Source: Rickettsiales bacterium (lineage in GTDB: Bacteria; Pseudomonadota; Alphaproteobacteria; G027485855). From it: a stretch of 64,000 nt of DNA. Under the pieces are notes generated by a model that saw only the letters and a program-made list of their open reading frames with translations, had not been told where the DNA came from and made no database searches. Both the position numbers and the translations under genes were made by a program. The stretch covers positions 124,001 through 188,000 of the forward strand of contig JAIXQD010000001.1 in assembly GCA_027485855.1 (NCBI GenBank), written 5' to 3'. The first letter of the stretch is position 1. Each line of letters starts with the position of its first letter. Below, piece after piece: positions 25,349 through 58,489 of the stretch.

Positions 25349-26197
25349 ATGCAGGAATCTTCTATCGCCAAAGATATGTTGGCTAAAGATATTGCCTATG
25401 AAGTCAGCGGTAAGTCGGCTACGGCCTATCGCACCATAAGCGAGGTCGCAACCGAGCTTGATGTGCCGCAGCATGTGCTGCGCTTTTGGGAAAGCAAGTT
25501 TAGCCAAATTCGCCCACTCAAGCGTGGCGGTGGCCGGCGTTATTATCGCCCCGAAGATGTCGATGCCTTAAAGCGTATTCGTCATTTCCTCTATGAAGAG
25601 GGCTATACAATTCGTGGTGTGCAGCGTTTGCTGCGTGAGGCACGCCGTAGCCCTGCCGCAACAGCAGGGCAGCGCGTGGCTGAAATTGCCCGTGAGCTTG
25701 AAGCTATGGACAATCTTGAAAGCGATACAATGACTTTTGAGATTGTTGATGCGGAAGATGTATTCATCCCCGATGAAGATGCCGATGAACAAATCACTGA
25801 ATTTACCCATCAATATGCCAGCAATGTTTCGGCAGAACATGCGGTAAGCCAGAGTATTTTTGCGGCCGCCGAAAATAAAGCCGAAAATAAGTCCAGTGAA
25901 CAGGCTGAAGCTGAAAATCTGCCGCTGCTGCAGCCCTTGCTAAACGATGCTGTAATTACAGCCGCGCCGATTGCGCCCGCAGAGCCAATCATTGAGCCGG
26001 CCCTGTCAGAAGATGCGGTGCCAGAAGTAGTTGTGCCAGAGGCTGCGGTGCCAGAAGTAATTGTGCAAAAGGAAACCGTGACCATCACCATAAAAGAGTC
26101 GGTTTACCAGCTGAGCGAAGTGCAGCGCGCCGAGCTTGAAAGCCTGTTGGCCGAGTTTAAACTTATGCGCGATCAATTGCGCCAAAGTGAGATATAG
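25349..26197 (+). CDS. MerR-family regulator with long acidic C-terminal tail
   Basis: A 282-residue regulator. The N-terminal winged helix ([33 protein letters not shown]-type sequence, then [33 protein letters not shown]) is the MerR-like domain always found behind ihfA in alphaproteobacteria. The rest is acidic and low-complexity. It contains three 15-bp units encoding [10 protein letters not shown] and VPEVI, and ends in a helix that may pair ([22 protein letters not shown]). No effector-binding domain is recognisable. The ATG is 5 bp behind the ihfA stop. Confidence 0.88.
26018..26062 (+). repeat. 15-bp coding repeats in the MerR tail
   Basis: Three consecutive 15-bp units beginning GTGCCAGA encode the pentads [10 protein letters not shown] and VPEVI. 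Confidence 0.85.
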
Positions 26198-26343: not shown

Positions 26344-26420
26344 CGGAATGTAGCGCAGCCTGGTAGCGCATCAGTCTGGGGGACTGGGGGTCGTGGGTTC
26401 GAATCCCGCCATTCCGACCA
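26344..26420 (+). tRNA. tRNA-Pro (GGG)
   Basis: The acceptor stem CGGAATG / CATTCCG closes a full cloverleaf. The anticodon loop CTGGGGG gives GGG (proline), the T-loop is GGTTCGAATCC, and the CCA end is encoded. It stands alone, followed by a short T-rich tail. Confidence 0.97.
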
Positions 26421-26747
26421 TTTTCTTTTTCAAATATCATGCATGATTTTTTACATTCACGATTTTATTCGGCGCTACGGTTTATAGCGCCTCACCAATT
26501 GCTCCCTAAAAATAGCGCCCTACAAATAGCTCTCCACCAATGACACTCTAAAGCCTATCCGCTTCTTATCCCCCCCCATATTTGCGGCAAAATTACATAC
26601 AATCATAGGGTGTTACGGCCTCAGAATTATCATATTAAGGTTACATTAACTTATAACTTGCACAATCCGTCATACAACTGTAAGATGTATTTAAGCTTAT
26701 CTCTTTATCAAAAAATACAATTCATAAGAGTAATAGGAAAACCCGCC
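26421..26747 (+). other. Gene-free stretch between tRNA-Pro and the nuclease fusion gene
   Basis: No convincing gene. The middle holds degenerate short repeats of the form ATAGCGCC and CACCAAT (about 26478-26545). The last 100 bp are AT-rich and likely carry the promoter of the next gene; an AGGAAAA ribosome binding site lies 7 bp before its ATG. Confidence 0.5.
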
Positions 26748-27938
26748 ATGAAGTCGTCTTCTGCCCCTGATATTGCATCTACTGATATGCAAGATAACCC
26801 AATCACGCCCAAAGCGACCCGCAAAGTCGGTCGGCCACCCAAAAATTGTAACCTGACTAAAGATATAAACAAGCAGCGTTCAAAACAGGCCTCTGCGGCG
26901 CGCAACAAAGGCCTGCGCCGCGAGCGTGAGATAGCGGCCTGGCACCGTGACCAGCTAGGTGTCGCTGCCGAGCGCGTGCCTTTTTCGGGCTCAACCCGTT
27001 ATAAGGGCAACGCGGCCGATGTTGATATTTATGCTTTTGGGGTTGACTACCCGCCGCTGCATGCCGAGGTGAAGGCCCGCGCCGATGGCCATGGCTTTAA
27101 TGTGCTTGATGGTTGGCTGGCCGAAAATGACGTGTTGTTTTTACTGCGCGATCGGGCCGAGCCTTGCGTTTATATGCCTGGCCGTGTTTGGGCCGAGATC
27201 ATGCAATACATGAAGATGGCTCAGCAAGTCAGTCAATCTGTTCATAAAATTATTCCTAAAAATGGTGCGGCAGCACTAAATGATAAAAACAAAAATAGTG
27301 CAAAAGCGCATCAGAAAAGCACTTATTTTCGGGCGGCCGAGTCGCATGGCTTACCACGCACACAGATGCCCGTTTTAAGCGAAACACTTTTGCCCGCGCC
27401 CTTAGTCAAGGCATCGGCAGCACAGGTGCATTCAACCATGCCTTTAGATGTTGTTTGGCTGTTAGACTCCGAGCTCTTTGCGCTGCTTTCGGGCGAGCAA
27501 TTTAAGGCGGCTTTTCGTTTATGGTGCAAGGCTTGGTGTCAGCAGCCGCAAGGCTCGTTGCCAAATGATGACCGCATTTTGGCCTATTTGTCTGGTGCGG
27601 GCGAAAGCTGGTCACAATGGCGCGAAATAGTGCTGCAAGGCTTTATTGCCTGTAATGATGGCCGGCTTTATCACCCACAACTGATAAAAATGGCCCAGCG
27701 TCATCAAACCCAAGAGCTCAACCGCAAAAATAATTTGCCGCCGCCAGTGTCTGCACCAAAGCCACGTCGGCGCATTTTGCCCATACCCAGCTTGCGTGCT
27801 ACACCCGTTACGGCAGAAAAAATAAATCTGAGCCATAATAAATGCAGCCTGCCACGCAGCTGGATGACGGGGCAGGGCCCAATAAAGATGTCGCCAAATA
27901 TGTCGACAAATCTGTCACCGAGGCAAAATAAAGACTGA
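26748..27938 (+). CDS. Putative Hjc-like PD-(D/E)XK nuclease fused to a DUF1376-like domain
   Basis: A 396-residue protein with two recognisable parts. Residues about 50-155 look like an Hjc-type Holliday junction resolvase: RNKGLRREREIAAWHRDQ (E59/E61), VPFSGSTRYKGNAADVDI (D91/D93) and LHAEVKAR (E107, K109), the PD-(D/E)XK pattern. An AT-hook-like GRPPK lies before it near residue 29. After a low-complexity linker, residues about 230-335 resemble the phage DUF1376 (YdaU) domain: DSELFALLSGEQFKAAFRLW, GSLPNDDRILAYLSG and DGRLYHPQL. I know of no described protein with this pairing. The ATG used has an AGGAAAA ribosome site; an upstream extension of 46 codons is rejected. Neighbours (tRNA-Pro, GNAT) give no function. 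Confidence 0.7.
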   Translation: MKSSSAPDIASTDMQDNPITPKATRKVGRPPKNCNLTKDINKQRSKQASAARNKGLRREREIAAWHRDQLGVAAERVPFSGSTRYKGNAADVDIYAFGVDYPPLHAEVKARADGHGFNVLDGWLAENDVLFLLRDRAEPCVYMPGRVWAEIMQYMKMAQQVSQSVHKIIPKNGAAALNDKNKNSAKAHQKSTYFRAAESHGLPRTQMPVLSETLLPAPLVKASAAQVHSTMPLDVVWLLDSELFALLSGEQFKAAFRLWCKAWCQQPQGSLPNDDRILAYLSGAGESWSQWREIVLQGFIACNDGRLYHPQLIKMAQRHQTQELNRKNNLPPPVSAPKPRRRILPIPSLRATPVTAEKINLSHNKCSLPRSWMTGQGPIKMSPNMSTNLSPRQNKD

Positions 27939-27989: not shown

Positions 27990-28553
27990 ATGCCTGCACC
28001 CATCATTGTGCCTTTAGCAAGTTTAGGTGAGTCAGCTTTGGCTTTACTTACCCGTATGCTGCATCAAGCCTATCGCACCGATTGGCCGCGCTTTTACACA
28101 ACCATAGCTGATGCCCGCGCCGAGGTTGATGCGCTGATGACCGATAACAGCAAAATTGCCAGGGCCGCGGTTGATGGCCGTGGTGACCCGATGGGCCTTA
28201 TTGCCGCCAAGCCCATTTATGAGGGCAATGTGTGGCAATTGCACCCGCTGGTCGTCGATCCGCTGCATCGTAAAAAAGGTGTCGGCAAAGCACTGTTGTT
28301 CGATCTAGAAAATCATGCGCGCGCCCGCAATGGCTTAACCTTATGGGCAGCCTGCGCCGATGAAAACCGCCTCACCACCATGTCGGACGGTGACCCATAC
28401 CCAGATCTGTTGATGCGCCTCAAGCGCATTCAAAACCGCAAAAACCACCCCTATGAGTTTTTGCTTAAATGCGGCATGCAGCTTGCCGGCATGATGCCAG
28501 AGGCCAGTGGTCGCAATCGGCCCGATATTTTTCTGGCCAAGCGTTTGCAATGA
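27990..28553 (+). CDS. GNAT-family N-acetyltransferase
   Basis: A 187-residue acetyltransferase. The acetyl-CoA binding signature is visible as VWQLHPLVVDPLHRKKGVGKALL (motif A, with the R-x-x-G-V/I-G pattern), after a strand DPMGLIAAKPIYEG. The substrate is unknown. The C-terminal part (YEFLLKCGMQLAGMMPEASGRNRPDIFLAKRL) is like aminoglycoside-type GNATs that carry an extra strand. The stop overlaps the next gene start by 4 bp (ATGA). Confidence 0.85.
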   Translation: MPAPIIVPLASLGESALALLTRMLHQAYRTDWPRFYTTIADARAEVDALMTDNSKIARAAVDGRGDPMGLIAAKPIYEGNVWQLHPLVVDPLHRKKGVGKALLFDLENHARARNGLTLWAACADENRLTTMSDGDPYPDLLMRLKRIQNRKNHPYEFLLKCGMQLAGMMPEASGRNRPDIFLAKRLQ

Positions 28554-54709: not shown

Positions 54710-56011
54710 ATGAAAACCGCAAAATCAGCCATAAAAAGCCGCCAAAACAGCACGCGCAGCGCCAAAGCTGGGCGTGGTGGCATGGCTGTTGCCAAAGGTC
54801 GTCCTGCCAGTGGGGGCGCCGGCACTAATAGGGGCGCAAAGGGGGGCGCAAAAGGCGGCACAAAGCGCAAAACCAGCGCGATGCGTGGCACGGTTGTTTC
54901 GCAAACCCGCGCCCGCCGCAAAGAGCTGCCGCCCTCGGAGGCCGAGCTGGCCCTTAATGCCGAGCAGGCCCATATTGCTAAAGATGCGCTCAGCCACAGC
55001 GAGCATGCCAGCCTGCGCCAGTTGATAGCCCAAGGCGCCGCGCCAAACTCGCAACGCGCCTTGCAGCATGATTGGCTTTATCTGCAAAGCTGGGCGCAGC
55101 TAGCCACTGAGGCGCAAAGCTTGCCTTTTCCGGCGCCGGTTGGTTTGGTGCTTAAATTTATCGCGCAGCATATGGGCGAGGGCGAGCCCATGCCTGATTA
55201 TGTGCTGGCAGCGTTAAAGGCGCGTGGTTTGCGCAAAGCGCAGCGTTTATCGAGCAGCAGCCTTAAACGTATTTTGGCGCATTGGGCCAGTTTGCATCGG
55301 CTCTATAATTTGCCTTCGCCGTTAAAAGAGCCCGCCATCCGCGCGGTATTGCGCCGTGCCTTTGCTGCACAAAATGATGCACCACAACGTAAAAGCCCGC
55401 GGCCCATTACTTTGCCGGTTTTGCGAGCTATGTTGGCACAATGCGGTGATGATTTGCGCGGCTTGCGCGATTGCGCGCTTTTATCCTTGATGTTTGCCAC
55501 GGGCGGGCGGCGGCGCAGTGAAGCGGCCTTGCTGAAAATAGCGCAACTGAAGCGCGAGAAAGGGCAAGCGGGCCTCCTAACCTTTTCGCTGCAATTGGGC
55601 CGCACCAAAACGCGTGATGCTTTAAGCAATAAAAAAGTGTGGCTGGTGGGGCAGGCGGCAGAGTCTGTGCAAGCGTGGCTGTGGGCCATGAAAGAGCAGG
55701 GGCTATTGCTGCAAGGCCCGTTATTTCGGCGTATTTATGCTAATGGCCATATTGGCCGTGAAGCGCTTTCGCCTGATGCTGTGGCAGATATTGTAAAAAA
55801 ATATCTAGAGCTTGCTGGCTATAATAAAAAACTTTATAGCGCCCATGGCATAAGGGCAGGCTATTTAACTGAAGCGGCTAATCGTGGCGTGCCGCTGGCG
55901 CAAGCGATGAGCCAAAGTGATCATCGCGATATTCGCAGTGCCGCACGCTATTATCATGAAGTAGAGATGAGCCAAAGCCGAGCAGCCTTGCTGCTTGATG
56001 AAGCGAAATAG
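54710..56011 (+). CDS. Tyrosine recombinase/integrase with basic N-terminal tail
   Basis: A 433-residue phage-type integrase. A lysine/glycine-rich tail (about residues 1-70) is followed by a helical core-binding domain and the catalytic domain. The first arginine lies in TGGRRRSE (R267-R269), the H-x-x-R box is H379 and R382 in HGIRAGYLTEAA, the second histidine is H405 in SDHRD, and the nucleophile is Y414 or Y415 in ARYYHE. All catalytic positions seem intact. The basic tail is unusual. The nearest tRNA gene is tRNA-Asn, 1.8 kb upstream. The ribosome site is weak. Confidence 0.88.
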   Translation: MKTAKSAIKSRQNSTRSAKAGRGGMAVAKGRPASGGAGTNRGAKGGAKGGTKRKTSAMRGTVVSQTRARRKELPPSEAELALNAEQAHIAKDALSHSEHASLRQLIAQGAAPNSQRALQHDWLYLQSWAQLATEAQSLPFPAPVGLVLKFIAQHMGEGEPMPDYVLAALKARGLRKAQRLSSSSLKRILAHWASLHRLYNLPSPLKEPAIRAVLRRAFAAQNDAPQRKSPRPITLPVLRAMLAQCGDDLRGLRDCALLSLMFATGGRRRSEAALLKIAQLKREKGQAGLLTFSLQLGRTKTRDALSNKKVWLVGQAAESVQAWLWAMKEQGLLLQGPLFRRIYANGHIGREALSPDAVADIVKKYLELAGYNKKLYSAHGIRAGYLTEAANRGVPLAQAMSQSDHRDIRSAARYYHEVEMSQSRAALLLDEAK

Positions 56012-56021
56012 CCTGCTTCAG

Positions 56022-56061
56022 CTATATGCGTGACGCTACATGTGCCCTAGGCTACATGCCC
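56022..56061 (-). repeat. Three copies of the stop unit at the end of the large repeat protein gene
   Basis: On the minus strand GGGCATGTAG (with the TAG stop), GGGCACATGTAG and CGCATATAG follow each other at 14-16 bp, each ending in TAG. Confidence 0.85.
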
Positions 56062-58400
56062 GCGGGTTTTATGCCGCCTTGCTTCTTTTGTACGTCGGCA
56101 ATTCTTTTGCCCAGCGCCTCGCTTTTAGCTCTAAGGGCAGCTGCTTCAGCCGCGACTTCTTTGGCAGTTTTCAGCGCCGGTGGCTGGGCTTTTTGCTCGG
56201 CCAAGGCTTTTAGCGCAGTCACTTGCCCCGGTGCAAAGGCTTGCAGACCAGGGCTATTGGCAAAAAGCGCGGCCCGTTCTTGGGCGATATCAGCCAAGCG
56301 ACTATCAGCATTAAGGCTGATGGTTTGGTAATTTTCGCTGCCATCGGCATTTCTGGTTACTGCATTGAGGCGCACTTCAGTTGGCCTACCATATTTTGCC
56401 GAAAGCGCTTTGGCGGTATCAATACCGGCTTGCACCTCAATGGCGATATCACGATTGGCCGTGGTAAAATCAACCGCCTTTGCGGCGATAATTGTTTTGA
56501 AAGAGCCATCCTGATTATATTTTTCGCCATTTATGTTTTGTGCCAGCTGGTCGAGTATGCTGGGTGGCGCATAATTAAAGCCATTGAGCTTTTTATTGCC
56601 GGCTGCTGTTGCTAGAGGCAGTTCGCCCTCTTGCAGCTGTTTGCTTTTATCGCCAGCGCGTAACTGGCTGAGCATATAATCTTTATATTTGCTGGCAGCG
56701 TCAGCAGCATTACGCACTACATAGGGCGTGCCAGTAATGGCAACTTGCTGTGCTTGAGTTTGTGCCGCTAGACCCGCTGCCGCAAAAATTGCCGCAGGGT
56801 TGATTTGGTCTAAATCCTGTTTTGCGGGGCCTGTTGCAGGCGCTTGAGCTTGCTCTGGTGCTTGCTCAGCTGGCGCAGCATCAGCAATAGGTTCGGCAGG
56901 AGGCGCAGCTGCATCTTCTGCTACAGGTTGTTCAGCTGGCGTAGCTTCGGCAATTGGTGTTGCAGGAAAGAGCCAAGGGGAAAGATTGCCAAGTTTGGTG
57001 TGTTCAGCTGGTGCAGCTTCGGCAATTGGTGTTGCAGGAGGTATCGCCTCATCTACCACAGGTGTTTCGACTGGTGTAGCCTCGGCAATCGGTGTTGCAG
57101 GGGGCGCGGCCGGTTCTTCGATAACTGGCTGTTCGGCGGCAGGTTGTTCGATAACTGGCTGCTCGGCGGCCGGTTGTTCGGCGACTGGCTGCTCGATAAC
57201 GGGCTGTTCGATAACTGGTTGCTCTACGACTTGTTCCGCCAGCTCTGGTGCGGTAGCAGGCTCTGTCGCTAAGCCGCCATTTACAACAGTGGCGGTTGTT
57301 GTGAGTGGTGCCGGGTTATCGATATTGAGCAGCGGGCCATAAAGCTGGCTGGTTTGCGCCAAGACCGATTTGAATATGTCAGAATCTTTGAACTTCTGCA
57401 CATCTTCGGCCGACATAACTGTGTCATTATCATTTTTAACGGCCATGCCTTGGATGATGGCGTGGGCTTTGATGACATCTTTGAGATTGCTATTCGGCGT
57501 ATCAATTTTAAGGCTGCCCCAGCCTTTGGTCTGCGCGGTATGCACCATATGCGCGATGGCGGTATGGTCCATTAATGGCAAACCATCCTTGCCTTTATTG
57601 AGCTGCAAGCGCATGCGTTGGCCATCGGCAAATTCACGCACATTGGTTTTAAGTTTTTGGCCAAAAGCATCATATTGGAAAGTATGATTTTGCGTAGCAT
57701 TCAGCCAGCTGCGGCGGCTTTGCTTATGAAAGGCTTCTTTCAGCAAATCTTCCTGCGCAAAAAGATTTTGGTAAAATTCATTGAGGCGGGCGATTTGGCG
57801 CTCTGTGTCGGCTTGCTGTGGGTTTGCTTCTGGCTCGGTTTGCGTTTCTGGTATTGCTTCAGCATTTGTTGCGGCGTTTGTTTCTGCCGGTATTTCTGTG
57901 TTTGGCGCGGGTGGAATGTCACCAGCGTTGCTAACGTCGGCTATTTGCTCTGGGGCAACTGGCTCTACTTCTTCGGGGGCTTGTTCGGTGGTGTTGGCTG
58001 CTGCGGCGTTTGGCTGGGCAGGGATCTCGGCATATAATTCGGGCGTGGCATTGCGTGCCTCAGCATGAATAAAATCAGCAACGAGGGTTAAAGTTTTTGC
58101 GCTAGGGGCGCTGGTGACTTTGCCATTATCGTAAATAGCTGAAAGCGAGCTCAGCTCGGGTGGCTCGTGATTGTAATTTAAACGCAAACCTTGCGGACGT
58201 TTGCCGCCAGCCACGGGCGCGCCATTTTCGTCTATGCTTTCAGGGCCAGAGGGAAAATACATAAAATCAACCAGCGGCGCGCCTTTATAAAGCTGCGCAC
58301 TTTCGGCACTGGCCGGAAGAATAAACAACTTGCCTTTAAGGCTTGGGTCATTGGCAATGGCTAAACCAAAATGCTCTTCGAGTTCTTTTTGCGTATGCAT
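56052..58400 (-). CDS. Large protein with pentapeptide repeats and possible LPD7-like domain
   Basis: A 782-residue protein of unknown function without signal peptide or membrane helix. Residues about 1-110 form one domain (KELEEHFGLAIANDPSLKGK). Residues about 200-330 contain DHTAIAHMVHTAQTKGWGSLKI and IIQGMAVKND, which recall the LPD7 domain of relaxases and large polyvalent proteins. A long Pro/Glu/Ala region follows with eight units such as EQPVI, EQPAA and EQPVA. The C-terminal domain has VDFTTANRDIAIEVQAGID and ends in a short coiled coil (AAEAAALRAKSEALGKRI). GAGGCG precedes the chosen ATG. It is convergent with the recombinase gene. Confidence 0.75.
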   Translation of the reverse strand: MHTQKELEEHFGLAIANDPSLKGKLFILPASAESAQLYKGAPLVDFMYFPSGPESIDENGAPVAGGKRPQGLRLNYNHEPPELSSLSAIYDNGKVTSAPSAKTLTLVADFIHAEARNATPELYAEIPAQPNAAAANTTEQAPEEVEPVAPEQIADVSNAGDIPPAPNTEIPAETNAATNAEAIPETQTEPEANPQQADTERQIARLNEFYQNLFAQEDLLKEAFHKQSRRSWLNATQNHTFQYDAFGQKLKTNVREFADGQRMRLQLNKGKDGLPLMDHTAIAHMVHTAQTKGWGSLKIDTPNSNLKDVIKAHAIIQGMAVKNDNDTVMSAEDVQKFKDSDIFKSVLAQTSQLYGPLLNIDNPAPLTTTATVVNGGLATEPATAPELAEQVVEQPVIEQPVIEQPVAEQPAAEQPVIEQPAAEQPVIEEPAAPPATPIAEATPVETPVVDEAIPPATPIAEAAPAEHTKLGNLSPWLFPATPIAEATPAEQPVAEDAAAPPAEPIADAAPAEQAPEQAQAPATGPAKQDLDQINPAAIFAAAGLAAQTQAQQVAITGTPYVVRNAADAASKYKDYMLSQLRAGDKSKQLQEGELPLATAAGNKKLNGFNYAPPSILDQLAQNINGEKYNQDGSFKTIIAAKAVDFTTANRDIAIEVQAGIDTAKALSAKYGRPTEVRLNAVTRNADGSENYQTISLNADSRLADIAQERAALFANSPGLQAFAPGQVTALKALAEQKAQPPALKTAKEVAAEAAALRAKSEALGKRIADVQKKQGGIKPAGM
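57112..57231 (-). repeat. Eight 15-bp coding units (EQPVI type)
   Basis: Consecutive 15-bp units encode EQPVI, EQPVI, EQPVA, EQPAA, EQPVI, EQPAA, EQPVI and EEPAA. Third-position changes show that the copies are not all recent. Confidence 0.9.
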
Positions 58401-58489
58401 GACCCGCCTCAAATCTAGGATATGATTTATAAATCTAAGCTCAACACATTAAACAGTTTGATGCACAGCCGTAAAGGAAAGCTTTATTT

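Follow-up and report, generated by a model that had tools for sequence, protein, structure and literature searches.

The open reading frame at positions 26748..27938 (+) raises the question of how a Holliday junction resolvase-like nuclease and a phage replication-protein domain came to lie in one polypeptide, and whether the product could serve the host. The frame lies within a window of 64,000 nucleotides, the whole stretch of DNA that was analysed. It starts with ATG, ends with the stop codon TGA at 27936-27938 and encodes 396 aa. The initial annotation described it as an Hjc-like resolvase fused to a DUF1376 domain, and proposed either a domesticated phage function or a defence factor. We think that it most likely represents two genes of phage replication/recombination modules that were fused in frame and left as an orphan, probably by an integrated phage that is otherwise lost.

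All parts of the fusion gene are read on the + strand. The N-terminal tail (residues 1-50; 26748..26897) is followed by the Hjc-type PD-(D/E)XK nuclease domain (residues 51-160; 26898..27227), which was recognised by Pfam, PHROG and PDB profile matches, AlphaFold2/Foldseek and conservation. A linker (residues 161-206; 27228..27365) leads to the DUF1376 module (residues 207-316; 27366..27695), which was recognised by PF07120, phrog_22470, alignment with phage proteins, AlphaFold2 and Foldseek. The protein ends in a basic low-complexity tail of 80 residues (27696..27935). There are no relatives of the N-terminal tail, the linker or the C-terminal tail in the fetched loci outside the organism's own genome. 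The letters of the AT-hook-like motif noted in the initial annotation are present (RKVGRPPK at residues 25-32, with GRPPK from residue 28), but the Pfam profile search gave no match to an AT-hook family in the ORF at E up to 10. A longer ORF can be read from a GTG at 26610; its 5' extension is AT-rich and of non-coding composition. The fusion gene is present in one copy in the genome.

The identity of the nuclease half as an Hjc-type PD-(D/E)XK enzyme was borne out. PF24608 (PDDEXK_15) matches residues 51-114 with an E-value of 1.1e-4, at a score (22.6 bits) below the curated cut-off of 27, which close stand-alone relatives of the nuclease half also miss. There is also a match of phrog_244 to residues 45-162 (E 3.9e-9). 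When a profile of 37 nuclease sequences was compared with PDB sequences, it matched the Holliday junction resolvase 7bgs at 9.2e-15 and Sulfolobus Hjc at 1.1e-8 (4tkd) and 1.5e-8 (1hh1), with the motifs aligned. The fusion protein shares its core and active-site spacing with these Hjc family proteins and with A. fulgidus Hjc (2wj0), following the pattern KG..E...G..RVPLSG....D......E-x-K. Hjc family proteins are stand-alone, whereas the nuclease of the fusion protein is preceded by a basic tail and followed by the DUF1376 module. The residue numbering given earlier for the active site is correct: E59/E61 lie in RERE, D91 in ADVDI and E107-x-K109 in AEVKAR. In the alignment of the 37 sequences K54, E59, E107 and K109 are among the invariant columns, and D91 is conserved in at least 90%. 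The AlphaFold2 model of this half has a pLDDT of 85.8, and Foldseek matches it to the A. fulgidus Hjc 2wj0 (probability 1.00, E 0.016, with a modest TM of 0.44-0.48). Other PD-(D/E)XK nucleases give similar E-values, so the predicted structure points to the PD-(D/E)XK superfamily more firmly than to the Hjc family. Given that it matches the Hjc family and has kept its active site, the protein would be a branch-cutting nuclease as originally proposed, and it is possibly still active.

The direct homologues of the nuclease half are the stand-alone phage nucleases of PF24608 (PDDEXK_15) and phrog_244. These are about 105-160 aa long and are found in replication/recombination modules. A nuclease-only scan of viral contigs with a single sequence recovered no relatives; an alignment-based search did find them. 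Relatives of the nuclease half are encoded by 153 candidate stretches in IMG/VR; the best 80 loci were kept, and among these identity to the fusion protein reaches 60%. On three viral contigs (L104, L106 and L107) the relative adjoins a Sak4-like annealing protein or a Cas4-type exonuclease. On another (L113) it is near a bifunctional primase/polymerase, and in Roseobacter phage CRP-823 it is near a DNA primase/helicase.

The DUF1376 assignment was likewise confirmed. PF07120 matches residues 245-310 (E 1.9e-9) with 38.2 bits, above the cut-off of 30.1, and phrog_22470, annotated as 'replication protein', matches residues 215-316 (E 4.5e-22). The latter match is confined to positions 3-109 of the 340 positions of the family, and a full-length match failed. 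By tblastn, this half finds Pseudomonas and Burkholderia phages, mostly with 40-56% identity over about 105 residues. In the PF07120/phrog_22470 proteins of Pseudomonas phages Hali and phi297 and of Burkholderia phage Magia, the N-terminal 105 or so residues are 45-56% identical to the fusion protein, start region included. In Hali and phi297 the DUF1376 gene lies directly before a helicase loader or DnaB-type helicase gene, and there is a RusA gene near it in phi297 and Magia. The AlphaFold2 model (pLDDT 86.6) retrieves phage DUF1376 models in Foldseek, with E-values down to 2e-9, and, lower down, a phage replisome-organiser N-terminal domain. Against the PDB, Foldseek returned nothing significant for this model, the top matches being RepA-type initiators at E about 0.6. 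To our knowledge, DUF1376 is known solely through its association with phage replication genes. Literature titles and abstracts contained nothing about function for DUF1376, phage Hjc or YdaU, and the term DUF1376 appeared in just five of the papers retrieved, once in each.

The phage DUF1376 proteins begin at the position equal to the internal M207 of the fusion protein, and two phage genes therefore appear to have been joined end to end in this ORF. The phage proteins are about 320-440 aa long with DUF1376 first, whereas the fusion has a nuclease in front of the domain and the C-terminal two thirds are absent. The missing portion contains the part shared with O/DnaD-like proteins, and the basic tail occupies the place of this C-terminal part (about 230 residues). 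Because it is gone, the fusion cannot act as a full phage replication protein. With DUF1376 linked to replication by association only and most of the replication protein missing, the guidance to replication forks suggested in the initial annotation is no more than a possibility. One phage contig (L105) carries a nuclease 54-58% identical to that of the fusion. An O/DnaD-like replication gene lies 0.7 kb downstream of this nuclease, and the C-terminus of its product matches positions 272-339 of phrog_22470, the family of the DUF1376 half. This gene order is a plausible ancestral arrangement, and a deletion between neighbours such as these would yield the fusion gene. There is no phage in the surveyed loci in which the nuclease directly adjoins a DUF1376 gene.

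In our survey the pairing was not a common annotated family. With the organism's own genome excluded, there was no other fusion in 109 DUF1376 loci and 85 nuclease loci, and none of these loci held both domains, so that all 85 other nuclease loci differ from the fusion gene in lacking DUF1376; the survey reached up to 5 kb into the flanks of viral loci and mostly 1.5 kb into those of genome loci, and its pattern-based scans can miss loci. For each half, the 80 closest IMG/VR loci are among those surveyed, and a close fused relative with DNA matching the search patterns should therefore have shown. Direct searches of genome contigs and of viral contigs also gave no full-length relatives of the fusion. 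In class-wide draws, 4 of 385 genomes contained the nuclease half and 16 of 337 contained DUF1376 (the organism's own genome is counted in both), and in 58 genomes of the class there were single-domain matches only. The absence of other fusions holds for this sample and is not proof of uniqueness. The domain combination is new; both of the component phage families are already known.

A tRNA-Pro(GGG) gene identified by ARAGORN (26344..26420, +) lies 327 bp upstream of the fusion gene, whose position beside this tRNA with no other phage genes is as first described. A gene for a MerR regulator (25349-26197) lies upstream of both, and a GNAT acetyltransferase gene (27990-28553) lies downstream. 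The order merR then tRNA-Pro(GGG) is conserved in 25 of 29 alphaproteobacterial loci, so the upstream side of the locus is ancestral. The first gene after the tRNA varies among genomes and was an ordinary gene in ten of ten other genomes; the idea that the tRNA-Pro site is an integration hot spot is therefore unsupported. The genes beside the fusion gene are housekeeping genes only; neither an integrase gene nor att repeats nor defence genes were found next to it, and there was no match to phage DNA. An att-site search for a second tRNA-Pro 3' end in the genome found only the tRNA itself. A tRNA-borne prophage origin is plausible but unproven.

A tyrosine recombinase of 433 aa (Phage_integrase, E 1.6e-12) is encoded at 54710-56011 (+), 27 kb from the fusion gene and about 1.8 kb beyond a tRNA-Asn gene. 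Its gene adjoins a weakly MarR-like gene and a gene at 56052-58412 (-) for a 786-aa protein with long A/E/P-rich repeat runs (EQPVIEQP, PATPIAEA). This repeat-rich protein has only a weak LPD7 match, and its codon-usage score of 0.059 is the lowest among the genes tested. The recombinase region may belong to a small mobile element of its own.

Taken together, the data favour an orphan fusion of a PDDEXK_15-like, stand-alone Hjc-type resolvase with the DUF1376 module from the N-terminus of a phage replication protein. The fusion most likely arose by deletion or read-through between close-lying genes of an integrated phage, the rest of which would then have been lost, leaving an orphan gene behind tRNA-Pro(GGG). 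If the protein is made, it would probably dimerise through the nuclease half and would introduce Mg2+-dependent nicks into four-way or branched DNA at the E59/D91/E107/K109 site. The DUF1376 half is predicted to be a small helical domain like the N-termini of phage replisome organisers, and may allow the protein to bind DNA or a replication complex. Counting against this origin are the lack of adjacent prophage remains, a host-like codon usage and the lack of a phage with the exact pair of neighbours.

Another possibility is that the gene encodes a domesticated host enzyme, a nuclease for branched DNA that DUF1376 tethers to origins or forks and that supplements RuvC. The ORF is intact and every invariant residue of both domains is kept. 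The composition of the gene is host-like, with a mean log RSCU of 0.093, near the bottom of the host values (mostly 0.13-0.24), and the linker reads better in the fusion frame than in the other two frames. There may be a precedent for such use of a phage-type nuclease. In two genomes of one alphaproteobacterial genus (G173 and G049; about 1.4 Mb, 96-97% complete) a phage-type PDDEXK_15 nuclease gene lies directly behind yebC (L099, 1465-1992, +; L100, 1378-1884, -), which is the usual place of ruvC, and neither the RuvC nor the RuvA family was matched in the two genomes at that completeness. In these genomes the yebC-linked nuclease may replace the host resolvase. The genome studied here carries its own RuvC and RuvA, so the fusion need not serve as host resolvase and the possibility that it replaces RuvC was rejected. 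Domestication also does not readily account for a DUF1376 part without the remainder of the replication protein, or for a gene that stands alone and lacks an obvious operon partner. Although the gene may have been domesticated, a relic fusion explains the data no less well, and we consider domestication unlikely. The more specific proposal, that the host has retained a junction resolvase steered to origins or forks by a phage replication-protein domain, which would be a new two-domain nuclease architecture, is a little less likely again.

Alternatively, two separate genes may have been merged by an indel in the assembly, or the ORF may be a decaying pseudogene. The source is a single draft assembly of 34 contigs with an estimated contamination of 9.5%. 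The other two frames of the linker contain stops, so a single indel near 27200-27230 would split the ORF. In addition, the linker is without relatives and the C-terminal part has been lost. Set against this, 396 codons are open with both domains in one frame, there is no clear ribosome site before M207, and the chance that the linker frame would be open by composition alone is only about 6%. We therefore regard an artefact or a decaying gene as improbable. Finally, an anti-phage defence nuclease that finds phage forks by means of a phage replication domain has the logic of the domain pairing in its favour and nothing else, and this role was rejected as very improbable: PADLOC gave 0 families at E up to 1, no defence genes were recognised in the window, the neighbours are housekeeping genes and the pairing does not recur in other genomes.

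In summary, the homologues collected here show that Hjc-type resolvases are common small proteins of phage replication/recombination modules. As a relic, the fusion gene would be a commonplace remnant of a prophage that has been lost. A genuine and active fusion would instead be a natural case in which a domain from a phage replication protein tethers a branch-cutting enzyme, and would offer a way to study DUF1376, which is widespread in phages but scarcely represented in the papers retrieved.
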